A stretch of DNA of 20,354 nucleotides. Source: a virus. The DNA lies in the IMG/VR virus record IMGVR_UViG_3300045973_000227, positions 1 to 20,354 of that record; one strand, 5' to 3'. Below the pieces are notes generated by a model that saw only the letters and a list, made by a program, of their open reading frames with translations, did not search any database and was not told the DNA's origin. Of the stretch, positions 3,439-9,207 are shown piece by piece (positions within the stretch are counted from its first letter, which is position 1; every line of letters begins with the position of its first letter). A program made the translations under genes and the position numbers.

Positions 3439-3990
3439 ATGATTGGATTAAGCCTACGAGAGTTTAGAAATGCTGTTTCCGATTTGGCTAGGCCAAATAG
3501 GTTTGAGGTATTGATTACCCCACCAGCAGTCTATGACATTTATACTCCAGAGCAATTGAGTATGCTGTCATGGATCGCTGAAACTGCACAAATCCCTGCT
3601 AGGACTCAAGGGGAAGTTCCAATCAAATTTCATGGAATGGAATACAAACTCCCAGGTGACTTTGCCAAAGAGAACTTATCAATTGGCTTCCTCAATACCT
3701 ACGGCTGGGAAGGTAGAGCTTTCTTTGAACGATGGATGGATTATATACAAGAAATTGTTGGTACCAATAGAAGGGAATCAGCGTTCTCTTTATTAAACGA
3801 TTCAAAGATTAGGGTAACCCAATTAGGCAGAACACGAAATGATGAGTTGGCTAGGTATGAATTTTATGATGTATATCCTACCAACATATCAAACATCGAA
3901 TTGAACATGAGTGAATTTGATTCTGTTGAAAAATTCACTGTTGAGTTTGCATATTCATACTATGAGGCATTGGGATCTAACAATGGCTAA
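3439..3990 (+). CDS. 19: Tail tube protein, gp19 family (paralog 1)
   Basis: 183 residues, close to T4 gp19 (163). The hallmark SDLARPNRFEV lies at residues 14-24 and matches the FARPNLFQVEI segment of T4 gp19. The C-terminal strand block (YPTNISNIELN, then EKFTVEFAYSYYE) matches the family's ending (WPTNVGELQL...TFEVTLALDYWE). The protein forms the hexameric rings stacked in the inner tail tube. Of the three paralogs here it is the smallest and least decorated, so I take it as the main tube subunit. It starts three bases after the Hfq-like gene without a clear ribosome site, so it is probably coupled. It overlaps paralog 2 by eight bases. Confidence 0.88.
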   Translation: MIGLSLREFRNAVSDLARPNRFEVLITPPAVYDIYTPEQLSMLSWIAETAQIPARTQGEVPIKFHGMEYKLPGDFAKENLSIGFLNTYGWEGRAFFERWMDYIQEIVGTNRRESAFSLLNDSKIRVTQLGRTRNDELARYEFYDVYPTNISNIELNMSEFDSVEKFTVEFAYSYYEALGSNNG

Positions 3991-4681
3991 GTCACCACGA
4001 AGATTGATCACACCTCGCCATAACAAGTTTGATCCTACCAAAAGCCCATTGAATGAGTTTGGGCCTAGTGGATCTCCAGCTCAATACCCATATGACGTTA
4101 ATGCGTCTGAGATTCCATTTGACTCAACTCAGTTTCATGTAAATTATCTTAAAAATCAGTTCAGTGATCTGGCAAGACCTAACCTGTTCAAGATCGATCT
4201 GTTGCCGCCAGAATCACTAATCAATGATATGGATATGTCTGTCAATAGTCTACTAGGGGTATTGGCAAAGTCAACTAAGATCCCTAGCATGACTGCAAAG
4301 GATTATGTCTACCAAAGAGCTGGTCAGAAACTTTATATCCCTACAGGGGAGATGGAACACGGTGATGCATCCATAACATTCTACAATGATTCCGATTTTA
4401 TCCTACGATCCCTTTTCAATCGTTGGATGAGATTAGGGGTTCATAATTGGGATTATAACATTGGTGCTGTTCCTTCATTGGCTTTGGCTGGGCAAGTTAC
4501 CATTTACCATTTCGATTACAGTTTAAAGCCTACATACTCGGTTGTATTGACCAATGCATGGCCTAAGACAGTATCTGAGATAGAGCTATCACAAGATGAT
4601 GAAAACAAGGCAGAAGAGTTTACAGTTGACTTCAACTATACTTCTCAGCTGATATACAAGTCTTACAAGGACGAAGAATGA
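3983..4681 (+). CDS. Tail tube-like protein, gp19 family (paralog 2)
   Basis: Start chosen at ATG 3983 (MAKSPRRLIT), overlapping paralog 1 by eight bases. An earlier ATG at 3911 would extend the overlap unnecessarily. 232 residues: an N-terminal extension of about 50 residues rich in Pro, Ser and Asp, then the tube core with FSDLARPNLFKIDLL, and the ending NAWPKTVSEIELS...EEFTVDFNYTSQ typical of the family. The extension and larger loops suggest a ring with a special location, for example at the baseplate or head end of the tube, or surface decoration. That is inference. Its stop overlaps the next start (ATGA at 4678-4681). Confidence 0.8.
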   Translation: MAKSPRRLITPRHNKFDPTKSPLNEFGPSGSPAQYPYDVNASEIPFDSTQFHVNYLKNQFSDLARPNLFKIDLLPPESLINDMDMSVNSLLGVLAKSTKIPSMTAKDYVYQRAGQKLYIPTGEMEHGDASITFYNDSDFILRSLFNRWMRLGVHNWDYNIGAVPSLALAGQVTIYHFDYSLKPTYSVVLTNAWPKTVSEIELSQDDENKAEEFTVDFNYTSQLIYKSYKDEE

Positions 4682-5307
4682 GCGATACCACTTCATACCT
4701 ACATTGGTTAGACGTTGATTGGATTAAAGAAAATTCAACTATCAATGACAACCAAGGGTTACCATTCACTGACAGATTCGTTTGTCTGTTGAATGCCCCA
4801 GGTGGTGAGTTGAAAAAGAATGGTTGGCTTGAACTTCAAGTCATGTCAGTTGAACTTCCAAACTTTGGGATCGATCCAACTGAGCAAGAACTGAATGGGG
4901 CAAAACGATTCTATTTCAAGGGTAGATCTGACTCAGAACTTAGCATCACATTCATGGAAACCCCTGACCTGTTACTAAGACGATTCTTCTATGCTTGGTT
5001 ACAAAAAGCAATTGATATCAATGAAACCTCTGGGGTTAGAAGATCGTATATGAATGAGTATATGCCATCCCCTTCAGAGTTTATCATCTTCCCTCTGAAC
5101 TACAAAGGGACTGCCAGTTATGCCGACAGGTTTGTTAACATTTTCCCATATGACATATCAGGGATCAGTTACAACTATGGGCAAGCTGGGGAATTGTTAA
5201 AAACTACCGTCAAATTCAAGTACATGTACCATTACATGACTTCCATTAAAGATTCTAAACCATACCACATTTCAGAATCCGCTAGTGGATTTAAAGCTGC
5301 CAACTAA
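4678..5307 (+). CDS. Tail tube-like protein, gp19 family (paralog 3, divergent)
   Basis: 209 residues, starting in an ATGA overlap with paralog 2. The opening motif is changed: GLPFTDRFVCLLNAP stands where DLARPN is expected. Shared features are the middle strand and helix (SELSITFMETPDLLLRRFFYAWLQ, equivalent to the SITFYNDSDFILRSLFNRWM of paralog 2) and the ending NIFPYDISGISYNYG...LLKTTVKFKYMYHY. It is therefore a tube-fold protein, and could be a tube initiator or terminator rather than the main subunit. The last ~20 residues (Ser/Ala/Lys-rich) look disordered. Confidence 0.72.
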   Translation: MSDTTSYLHWLDVDWIKENSTINDNQGLPFTDRFVCLLNAPGGELKKNGWLELQVMSVELPNFGIDPTEQELNGAKRFYFKGRSDSELSITFMETPDLLLRRFFYAWLQKAIDINETSGVRRSYMNEYMPSPSEFIIFPLNYKGTASYADRFVNIFPYDISGISYNYGQAGELLKTTVKFKYMYHYMTSIKDSKPYHISESASGFKAAN

Positions 5308-5328
5308 ACAACGAAAAGGAGTAACACA

Positions 5329-6042
5329 ATGTCATTACCAGAAATTAAGAAAGATATCAAGTATATCACAACTAAGGTTCCATCTGGCAAATCAATTGGG
5401 GTTCGTGGGTGGAAAGTTAAGGACGAGAAAGAACTTCTCTTTGCCCTTGAGGTTGAAGAAGACTTCGACAACAACAAGATCAACCACATCATCACCATGA
5501 TTCGTGGGTGTACTGACGATGTTGGGAAGTTTGATACCCTATCGGAAAGTGATGTACTAAAGGCTGCAGTTGAGGTTAGAAAACTAGCCAAGGGTGACAC
5601 AATTGAGTATAACTATGAATGCCCTCATTGTGCCAACAAATTCTTTGATGAGGTTAACCTAACCAAGGGGCTTACTACCAAAGACTTCGATCCTAAACCG
5701 CTCAATATCAATGATCAGTTGATTGTAACTTTCAAGGATCTTGATTGGAAATCGGTTGCCAAGATTTACGAGGAAGTTGATAGTTCAGCTAAGTTTGCAT
5801 TCAAACAGATCATGCATTCAATCGATTCAATGACGATTGAGGGCAATACATACACTGAGTTTACCCCTGCCGAGGTTGAAGCTCGTATCGATGAACTTAG
5901 TTCAGATGAGTTGAAAATCATTTACAAGGGCTTTGAAGAGCGTCAATCTTCATGTGTTCTAAGTCGTAGCATTAAGTGTATCAAATGTAAGAAAGACATT
6001 GATGTTAACTTTGGGGAAATGCTAAGTTTTTTAGTTTTATAG
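5329..6042 (+). CDS. 26: gp26-like baseplate/tail assembly chaperone (zero-frame product)
   Basis: 237 residues, started by a strong AAGGAG (5315-5320) eight bases before the ATG. The pattern WKVKDEKELLFALE, then INHIITMIRGCTDD, then KAAVEVRKLAKGDTIEYNYECPHC fits the T4_baseplate family of T4 gp26, a protein needed for hub assembly and not a stable part of the virion. Two CxxC knuckles (C98/C101 and C217/C220) probably bind one zinc ion. It lies directly upstream of the tape measure gene, the place held by lambda gpG and P2 gpE chaperones. It ends with a slippery heptamer a few codons before the stop, pointing to a longer -1 product. Family call is by pattern recognition, not search. Confidence 0.75.
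   Translation: MSLPEIKKDIKYITTKVPSGKSIGVRGWKVKDEKELLFALEVEEDFDNNKINHIITMIRGCTDDVGKFDTLSESDVLKAAVEVRKLAKGDTIEYNYECPHCANKFFDEVNLTKGLTTKDFDPKPLNINDQLIVTFKDLDWKSVAKIYEEVDSSAKFAFKQIMHSIDSMTIEGNTYTEFTPAEVEARIDELSSDELKIIYKGFEERQSSCVLSRSIKCIKCKKDIDVNFGEMLSFLVL
6027..6033 (+). promoter_or_regulatory. -1 programmed frameshift slippery site (TTTTTTA)
   Basis: The heptamer T TTT TTA lies in the correct phase for tandem -1 slippage (zero-frame codons agT TTT TTA) three codons before the TAG at 6040. It is the same class as the HIV-1 gag-pol site. After slipping, the frame is open for 61 codons to a TGA at 6216, touching the tape measure ribosome site. Downstream structure is weak: only TATAC/GTATA (6069-6073 with 6080-6084) is visible. 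Confidence 0.7.
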
Positions 6043-6218
6043 TCTTTGATCAACCCATATCCACGATCTATACGATGATGTATACGATGAAGAAGGAAAG
6101 TGGGTTCAGCATTGATGAGATTTACGATATGTACCCTTTTGAAATGGACATATTTCATTCAATGTGTATCAAAGACATCAAAGACAGGATTGAGTTAAAA
6201 CGTCAAGCTAATAGGTGA
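6033..6218 (+). CDS. -1 frameshift extension of the tail assembly chaperone
   Basis: The -1 frame between the chaperone stop and the tape measure gene is open from the slippery site to TGA 6216-6218. It adds about 61 residues after residue 235, giving a ~296-residue fusion. The extension includes GFSIDEIYDMYPFEMDIF and IKDRIELKRQ, a charged helical segment like the C-terminal parts of other tail chaperones. The frame closes upstream at a TAA at 6006. Internal ATGs (6075, 6078, 6087, 6129) lack a convincing ribosome site, so independent translation is less likely. In lambda (gpG/gpGT) and P2 (E/E+E') the rarer fusion binds tube subunits and the tape measure. If translated alone it would be a small gp51-like protein. 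Confidence 0.68.
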   Translation, partial: SFIVFDQPISTIYTMMYTMKKESGFSIDEIYDMYPFEMDIFHSMCIKDIKDRIELKRQANR

Positions 6219-6222
6219 TCAC

Positions 6223-9207
6223 GTGGCTGAGAAAAAACAAAAAGATACCGTAGAAGAAAAGTTTAAAATCTTAACCACAAGATTTAAAACTTCTCTTGGT
6301 AAGGACATCAAAGATAGTGATATCACTAATGATGACCTTCAAAAAATTGTTGAATATGCCAGAACAATCACCGTGGGTGCATCAATTGAAAAGATTAATG
6401 ATCATTTATTTCTTCTCAATAGAATAGTAAAAGATTTTAATAAGATCAAACCAGATTTACTTGACAAAGCACGTGATGCCAAAGTTGAAAGTGATCAATT
6501 AGATTTAGATGCTGCAACAATACGTGATAATATCAGAGTCATCAATGGTGGTGGTTTATCAGCTAATCAAAAAAAGAAACATATAAAAATAGAGAAAAAA
6601 GCACTCAAGCCTATTGAAGATAGGTTAGAAGCATTATCATTTATCACCAACCTTGACGAGCAATGTGAAGCAACTAAGAAAATCCTTGAAAAATGTGAAA
6701 AGTTTCTAAAGGGTGACCTTGGTGTTAAAAAGCTCATAAAAGTCAAAGATCAAGCTGGTAATATTAGTCTCCAAGAAGAAGGAGATGAACTAAGTTTAAA
6801 TGATATTAAAGGGTTACAGAAACAAAAAAACAAAAAAGAAATGAGAACAAATCTAATTGGTGGGTTAGCATCTGCTTTGACAGGGAGTGCTTTACCTGCC
6901 ATGATTCCTTCTGGTATTAGAAATGCTAAAGATTACATTAGTAACTTTAAAAGTGCTGGGAAGAAAGAAAAGTTGGCACTTACAGCACAAGCTGGGCTTG
7001 GTATATTAGGGTTCATGACAGGAAGTTCTGCGTTATTAATGGGTGCTTCCCATATGGGGCAGAAAGCAAACGCAGAGAAACAAAAAAAATCAGATAGAAG
7101 ATCATTGTTAAAATTAATTGCAAGTAGCAAATATCACTCAAAAAAGAAAGACAAAGATCCTAATTATGTACCAACTGCTCGTAGTAGGAGCGGGGTGTTG
7201 TCACCAGACGTTGATGCTTTGGTTAAGATATTAGCTGCCCATAATCCTTCTCTTGCTCCTTTTTTGCGAGGGGGTGGTTTTAGTGCCAAGAATGGTGGTT
7301 ACTTTGGTGTTCAAGGTGGGAATGAAGATGGGGCTGGTAGTACTATCAGTAACCTCAAGGTTCACGCTGGGGAAAGTGTAAAGGTCGTTCAAAAAGAAGA
7401 TCCTGTTGTCAAGGTATTAGAAAAGACAAATGCGATCCTTGAAGATATCCGTCAATCCAATAAGGATATGATGGAAGATGCTGCAGAGGCTGAAGCACGA
7501 AAGGGTCTGCTTAATAAAAGTAAGAGTAAAACCGCTGAGAAAACTGATGGGCTTGTTGGTAAAGAAAAAGAAGATGAGAAGGATGAAAAAGGTGGTAAAC
7601 CTTCCCTTCTCAAGTCTATGCTTATCAGTAAAGGTAGCCGATTACTTTCTAAGATTCCTAAAGTTGGTGGAATATTAGGGGCTGCTACTGGTGCAATGTC
7701 TGATGCAACCCCTGTCTATGTTGTCAATGCCTCTGAGATGGGTGGGGGTGGATTAGGTGGAGTAGCAACTTCAGTTGGTGGTATGGCTAGTTTGATCCCT
7801 ATCTTAACTGGAACTGCTATGGTTGGTGCCGTTGCAACAATGGCATACCAAGCATACAAAACCAACAAAGATTTAAGAGAGTTAGATTACCAAAAAGATA
7901 CCACATCTAAGTCAGGGATTGATAGAGATAATAACACATTTGATAATGTTAAAGCTGCTGCTATAGCTAAAGGGTTTAGTGAAGATAAAGCCCAGACAAT
8001 GGCTATTCAAGATAATGTATATGGAGATCCCAAAGATAGAAAAGGGATTCTCAATGGCATGTCGTTATCTGAGTATTTCTTTGGAACTAAAAAGCAAGGG
8101 GCAACTCCTACGGCATATGCGGTTGGTGGATCTTTCGAAACAAATGGCCCACATAGTATGTTGGTCGGTGAAGCTGGGAGAGAAAATGTTTCAGTTACCC
8201 CAACTAACAAACCAATGCCTGTTATCATTAAAGATGACAAATCCAAACTAGCAAAAGAACAACTATCAGCCTTGAAAAGGACTGATAAGTTTAAAAATAC
8301 TCAACCAATAATCAATGTTACCGCTGGGAAAGATGAAGAATCCGCTATGGCTACCCCTATGGCAGCTACAGGGTCTACATTTGGTAGTGCAATTTCAACT
8401 GGATTTGATTACATCAAGAGTGCTGTAAGTAGCCCTATTCAAACTTTCAAGGAATTGAAAAGTCGATTTACTAAGAGTGGTGGTAAAGAAAATGAAGCTC
8501 TGATGTTAAAAGAGTTGACAAATTCTGGCATCACTGATCCAAAACAGCAAGCAATCATGATGGGGCAATTGGCTCATGAGTCTGGTGGGTTTACCCAGAT
8601 GAGAGAACTAGCCTCTGGGGATGCTTATGAGGGTAGATCAACCCTAGGGAACACCCAACAAGGGGATGGTCGAAAATTTAAGGGCAGAGGGTTTATACAG
8701 CTCACGGGTCGTAGCAACTATGCAGCTGCTGGTAAAGCTCTAGGGCTTGATTTGGTCAACAACCCAGAACTTGCAGCTGAACCAAAAATTGCTGCTAAGA
8801 TTGCTACTTGGTATACCATGAAGAGAGTCGATAAGAAGGCTCTGGCTGCAGGGGATGTTGTAGGGGTAACCAAGAGTATCAATGGTGGGGTAAATGGCCT
8901 TGATGACCGTATAGCGAGGACTCAGGGCTATATGGAAGGTGGGTTGGCTAAAGTCATTCCTAAAAATGTGTCAGAAGGGTCAATTGCTAACATCAAGAAC
9001 AATGCTGCAAATGGATCTGAAGGGATTAATCTCAAAAACAGAGAAGTTGCAACCGATCTTGCTAACAAGGCAGCTACAGCCAAAGGGACTCAACAGGCTA
9101 TAAATAACATTACTGTTGGTGGGTCTGCTCCAGCGCAAACTCCAACACCAAACATCTTTACAGGAGATCAGATAAGTTATGCTGCTCGTCTAGCAAAAGC
9201 TTATTGA
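6223..9207 (+). CDS. Tape measure protein with GH19-type peptidoglycan hydrolase domain
   Basis: 994 residues, GTG start behind AGGTGA (6213-6218), overlapping the stop of the frameshift product. Residues 1-205 are charged coiled coil. Hydrophobic, Gly/Ala-rich segments lie at about 211-228, 251-276 and 513-546, as usual in tape measures that may enter the host membrane. VGEAGRE (648-654) is a motif frequent in tape measures. Residues ~755-905 are a GH19 chitinase-like muralytic domain: LAHESGGF with candidate catalytic E786, a second E795 or E803 (YEGR), then GRGFIQLTGRSNY (821-833) and the NPELAAEP segment. The protein should span the tube lumen, set tail length, and cut peptidoglycan on injection. 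T4 gp29 has no such domain. A tail of order 130-150 nm would be expected from this length. Confidence 0.85.
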   Translation: MAEKKQKDTVEEKFKILTTRFKTSLGKDIKDSDITNDDLQKIVEYARTITVGASIEKINDHLFLLNRIVKDFNKIKPDLLDKARDAKVESDQLDLDAATIRDNIRVINGGGLSANQKKKHIKIEKKALKPIEDRLEALSFITNLDEQCEATKKILEKCEKFLKGDLGVKKLIKVKDQAGNISLQEEGDELSLNDIKGLQKQKNKKEMRTNLIGGLASALTGSALPAMIPSGIRNAKDYISNFKSAGKKEKLALTAQAGLGILGFMTGSSALLMGASHMGQKANAEKQKKSDRRSLLKLIASSKYHSKKKDKDPNYVPTARSRSGVLSPDVDALVKILAAHNPSLAPFLRGGGFSAKNGGYFGVQGGNEDGAGSTISNLKVHAGESVKVVQKEDPVVKVLEKTNAILEDIRQSNKDMMEDAAEAEARKGLLNKSKSKTAEKTDGLVGKEKEDEKDEKGGKPSLLKSMLISKGSRLLSKIPKVGGILGAATGAMSDATPVYVVNASEMGGGGLGGVATSVGGMASLIPILTGTAMVGAVATMAYQAYKTNKDLRELDYQKDTTSKSGIDRDNNTFDNVKAAAIAKGFSEDKAQTMAIQDNVYGDPKDRKGILNGMSLSEYFFGTKKQGATPTAYAVGGSFETNGPHSMLVGEAGRENVSVTPTNKPMPVIIKDDKSKLAKEQLSALKRTDKFKNTQPIINVTAGKDEESAMATPMAATGSTFGSAISTGFDYIKSAVSSPIQTFKELKSRFTKSGGKENEALMLKELTNSGITDPKQQAIMMGQLAHESGGFTQMRELASGDAYEGRSTLGNTQQGDGRKFKGRGFIQLTGRSNYAAAGKALGLDLVNNPELAAEPKIAAKIATWYTMKRVDKKALAAGDVVGVTKSINGGVNGLDDRIARTQGYMEGGLAKVIPKNVSEGSIANIKNNAANGSEGINLKNREVATDLANKAATAKGTQQAINNITVGGSAPAQTPTPNIFTGDQISYAARLAKAY
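9099..9106 (+). promoter_or_regulatory. Possible internal late promoter (TATAAATA)
   Basis: An exact TATAAATA inside the end of the tape measure gene. The predicted start is near 9112, about 100 bases before ATG 9214, and could boost the baseplate genes. The flanks (ACATTACT) do not match those at 602 and 2270, and the match falls in coding sequence, so chance is possible. Confidence 0.3.

Follow-up and report, generated by a model that had tools for sequence, protein, structure and literature searches.

A probable -1 ribosomal frameshift adds a gp51-type extension to the gp26-type tail chaperone of an uncultured T4-like virus

The question raised by this locus is whether a gp26-type gene, lying just ahead of a probable tape measure gene, gives rise to one protein or two. 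The window, which is the whole stretch of 20,354 nucleotides that was analysed (IMG/VR record IMGVR_UViG_3300045973_000227), carries a slippery heptamer near the end of this gene, and the first-pass annotation had read it as a programmed -1 frameshift. Our analysis supports that reading through profile matches, through the conservation of both heptamer and extension and through purifying selection on the extension. It is very likely (with a probability of roughly 0.94) that two tail assembly chaperones of the gpG/gpGT type, TAC-N and TAC-NC, arise here from a single start by -1 frameshifting. All features of the window described below are on the plus strand.

The short form, TAC-N, is encoded by an ORF of 237 aa (5329-6042) with a strong ribosome site (AAAAGGAG) ahead of its ATG; the Shine-Dalgarno motif AAGGAG is located at 5316-5321. 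Residues 11-235 of the protein match the PF12322 profile with an E-value of 1.3e-24 and 87.6 bits, against a curated cut-off of 24.5. A profile search also yields phrog_150, the T4 gp26-type baseplate hub protein (E 2e-23), and both profiles bear out the assignment of the gene to the gp26 type. No match to the gpG family was found in the profile searches. The short form further contains two cysteine pairs, CPHC (residues 98-101; 5620-5631) and CIKC (residues 217-220; 5977-5988), that have the look of a zinc ribbon.

The 0-frame gene ends in ATG CTA AGT TTT TTA GTT TTA TAG. Here the heptamer T TTT TTA occupies 6027-6033 in the exact X XXY YYZ phase, as the first-pass annotation had it, and two codons separate it from the stop. 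The -1 frame is indeed open for 61 sense codons (6033-6215) and stops at a TGA (6216-6218). This TGA was said to touch the start of the tape measure gene, which proved slightly off: it ends at 6218 and the GTG start is found at 6223, with 4 bases between them. The extension itself (TAC-C, 6030-6218, 61 codons past the slip plus the TGA) is of the gp51 C-terminal type, since residues 4-59 of the -1 peptide match positions 59-114 of the 121 positions in phrog_634, 'baseplate hub assembly catalyst' (E 2.3e-8). The predicted fused product, TAC-NC, has a length of about 296 aa.

In the proposed mechanism the majority of ribosomes would terminate at 6042 and yield the 237-aa TAC-N. A minority would shift by one base in the 5' direction at U UUU UUA, where both tRNAs could re-pair on UUU UUU, and would then read 61 more codons to produce TAC-NC, which ends in a small domain of the gp51 type. 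By analogy to lambda gpG/gpGT, the tape measure protein, the product of the next gene, may be coated by many short copies, and a few long copies may recruit tail tube subunits, starting polymerisation; both forms would leave before the tail is completed. We infer the slippage in cells, its efficiency and ratio, and these binding roles.

For the window alone, given its protein and codon usage, the chance of an in-phase heptamer is 0.21, and therefore the comparison across loci has to carry the case for the heptamer. Relatives were collected by a match to the upstream protein, and some phage records by the extension; the slip site was not used for picking them. Sources were IMG/VR contigs and phage records of Kyanoviridae and of Aeromonas, Vibrio, Serratia and T4-type phages. 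In 96 of the 97 loci of the first survey the heptamer is conserved as an in-phase T TTT TTN at most 15 bases from the stop, together with a -1 frame that is open for 52-64 codons. The variants are T TTT TTC (59 loci), T TTT TTT (27), T TTT TTA (9) and T TTT TTG (1). Non-redundant genes show the same pattern: 86 out of 87 have an in-phase T6 in the last 15 codons, against a mean of 37.5 and a maximum of 54 when the same 87 proteins are shuffled synonymously (300 trials). The background in the bodies of related genes is 13 in-phase T6 per 19,764 codons, or about 1% per 15 codons.

These counts also bear on the idea that a sequencing error or a recent frameshift mutation split one fused gp51-like gene. 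T4 gp51 is one fused ORF and homopolymers are error-prone, which would fit such an event. However, the same frame relation recurs throughout the 96 loci, finished cyanophage genomes included, and this refutes the explanation, leaving it next to no chance of being right.

An alignment of related phages had been proposed as a check, and it finds the heptamer kept together with the extension outside a small group of exceptions. In the Ackermannviridae phages phiMAM1, FKP10 and SPTD1 and in Vibrio phage K357 the canonical T6 is absent and the extension is kept; therefore the heptamer is not universal. The sequences suggest that this group may use a non-canonical slip site, with a single-tRNA slip on TTC/TTT. 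Gene ends in the group (L009 2438-2620, L118, L119 and L120) consist of A, G or C followed by TT TTC, one codon and the stop.

Selection on the -1 frame is purifying, with a dN/dS of 0.125 for the extension over 28 disjoint pairs. The frame is open in 85 of 85 loci, and the remaining two frames are open in none of these (0/85). Nonetheless, the extension might be a small gene in its own right, a short 'gp51' that is translationally coupled and initiates from an internal ATG. Such a gene could begin at the in-frame ATG at 6075 of the window, and short ORFs at the extension are annotated in public records of cyanophages and others (Syn1 gp51, phiAS5 ORF0325, D479_0400). Yet no ribosome site precedes the ATGs of these ORFs or the one in the window, and among 96 loci only 5 have even four SD-like bases matched ahead of a usable -1 start. 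Moreover, sequence conservation sets in at the slip site, as does the open frame, before any ATG is reached, and in T4-type phages a single ORF holds the same domain fused to that of PF12322. A separate gene, which would also leave the conserved T6 without a purpose, is very unlikely.

Both frames could also be joined at the level of the mRNA, if transcriptional slippage on the T6 produced a mixed population of transcripts. The heptamer starts with six T, and in some relatives there are seven or eight. A run of six T is short for slippage by RNA polymerase, however, and the loci retain the ribosomal X XXY YYZ phase and tolerate the endings T TTT TTC, T TTT TTA and T TTT TTG, by which the run is ended. 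We consider this origin of the fused product extremely unlikely.

For frameshifting by the ribosome, the preferred reading, a possible stimulator is present in the Shine-Dalgarno-like GGGGA at 6013-6017, 9 bases 5' of the heptamer. Across the family, anti-SD pairing in the region about 8-16 bases 5' of the slip reaches -6.6 kcal/mol, and synonymously shuffled sequences show a weaker -5.0 kcal/mol. Bacterial -1 shifts have known stimulators of a similar kind, a likeness that is only suggestive. Downstream of the slip no significant stem-loop or pseudoknot was found in the window (z +0.4), nor a consensus structure in its five-member clade. Over all loci the RNA 12-72 bases past the slip folds better than shuffles (mean z -1.7); in the T TTT TTC group a shared consensus fold downstream of the slip was not found. 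In E. coli constructs A AAA AAG was more shift-prone than U UUU UUA (PMC5009743). Because of this, and because the clade has no conserved stem-loop, the frameshift efficiency of the window may be low. Even so, the lambda system itself works at about 1 long to 30 short copies (PMC5009743).

The window is a well-supported further example of a described T4-like arrangement and not a discovery. Vladimirov and colleagues are said to have named genes 26 and 51 and to have described frameshifting in several T4-like groups. A review of 2016 still listed T4 as the exception among long-tailed phages (PMC5009743). The link to T4, which the first-pass annotation implied to be new, had been published in 2022: by the account of citing papers, Vladimirov, Gautam & Davidson (Virology 566:9-15, doi 10.1016/j.virol.2021.11.003) identified the T4-like chaperone genes. 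Their study is cited in PMC12846349 for poly-T slip sites in T4-like TAC-N genes and in PMC10885494 for T4-like phages that possess a short gene as well as a fused long gene.

Compared to these T4-like TAC-N/TAC-NC genes (gp26/gp51), as far as the cited accounts describe them, the window has a protein of the same PF12322 family and likewise a poly-T slip site. It differs in its position within a divergent uncultured clade: in the short-form tree the window and four metagenomic contigs (L002, L003, L012 and L013) share a long branch with support 100/100. Its heptamer is T TTT TTA, whereas most relatives have T TTT TTC or T TTT TTT, and its extension is only 11-32% identical to those of other groups. 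Differences are larger with lambda gpG/gpGT, where the heptamer is G GGA AAG; in addition, the T4-like TAC-N is longer than lambda gpG and has an extra Cys4 (zinc-ribbon-like) part.

Kyanoviridae cyanophages show the same gene order and -1 extension as the window, even though TAC-N is roughly 16-25% identical and their heptamer, T TTT TTC, differs in the last base. Cyanophage gp51 has been described as being without the first ~200 residues (Sullivan et al. 2010, PMC3037559). Frameshifting would explain this truncated look. More generally, our large and independent set of loci confirms the view that tail chaperones are made by ribosomal frameshifting in many T4-like phages beyond the T4 group. 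It also reveals an annotation gap, as records often omit the extension or enter it as a separate tiny gene. In the records viewed it was either unannotated or a tiny hypothetical or 'gp51' gene, and never a joined frameshift CDS (for example L004 4765-4902, L005 4715-4899, L009 2454-2620 and L119 after 1507).

The split gp26 and gp51 arrangement of T4 was not encountered in the window, where only one PF12322 gene was found across the 20-kb record and the -1 frame encodes the extension. In T4, gp26 matches PF12322 only and gp51 matches PF12322 followed by phrog_634; gp51 consists of the short form and the extension in one ORF, with an in-frame junction at the point that corresponds to the slip site. 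Near the ends of split-type gp26 genes the T6 is absent. These relations explain the paralogy of T4 gp26 and gp51, which have long been called hub assembly proteins. The first-pass annotation had tied both proteins to the general tail-chaperone system, and this link gains support from the profiles, from gp51 as an in-frame fusion and from the match to a TAC fold described below.

In the short-form tree, which is unrooted and has long branches, a single branch (support 99/95) divides the frameshift genes from the split genes, and gp51 forms one group (100/99). This topology fits a single duplication leading to the T4 arrangement. It is about an even bet that the frameshifted single gene is ancestral in T4-like tails, that a duplication in Straboviridae fixed the two products as a short 26 and a fused 51, and that the clade of the window is a deep branch that kept the older state. 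If this is true, control over the product ratio would have passed from the slip site to gene expression in Straboviridae, and the window's clade would have a slip site stimulated from its 5' side by a Shine-Dalgarno-like element, with no hairpin 3' of it. A different gene order is seen in Enterobacter phage EC-F2 (Pseudotevenvirus; L113 2001-3294): a gp51-type gene is followed by a short gp26-like gene on the same strand, in contrast to the divergent 26/51 pair of T4.

AlphaFold gives a confident model of the short form, with a pLDDT of 91. For residues 1-90 of the model the top matches among solved structures, and the best fold matches overall to this part of the window's protein, are HK97 gp13 (2ob9, Z 6.7) and YqbN (3klu, Z 6.1), the latter described as a tail assembly chaperone (PMC9603447). 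The third match is 5ir0, a PICI protein of unknown function (Z 4.6), and clearly unrelated chains reach 3.6 at most. With these modest Z values the predicted fold supports a connection between gp26-type proteins and the tail-chaperone system in general, although a Z of 6-7 alone can also stem from a common arrangement. HK97 gp13 and YqbN are shorter than the window's TAC-N, are without the C-terminal half and have about 10% identity to it; a sequence search of the solved structures found no relative. The part with the CPHC and CIKC pairs (residues 94-230) weakly resembles the zinc ribbons of NrdR (3.6) and ZPR1 (2.2). A fold search with the model of a T4-type gp51 (pLDDT 82, 8 sequences) yielded Z values of at most 3.3.

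The placement of the gene corresponds to that of a gpG/gpGT-type pair, with tail tube genes upstream and a long ORF (6223-9207) directly downstream. This ORF of 994 aa has a GTG start, follows the chaperone gene and precedes genes of the gp48, gp53, gp27 and gp5 types; judged by its position only, it is the probable tape measure protein. It matches the GH19 profile PF00182 (E 3e-13). The GH19-type (chitinase/endolysin) domain is located near the C-terminus, at residues 763-905 (8509-8937), and also matches phrog_181 (E 2e-48). Upstream of the chaperone, three phrog_45 tail tube-like genes of 183, up to 256 and 209 aa are found in a row (3439-5307); a similar triplication of the tail tube gene has been reported in Vandenendeviridae (PMC12846349).
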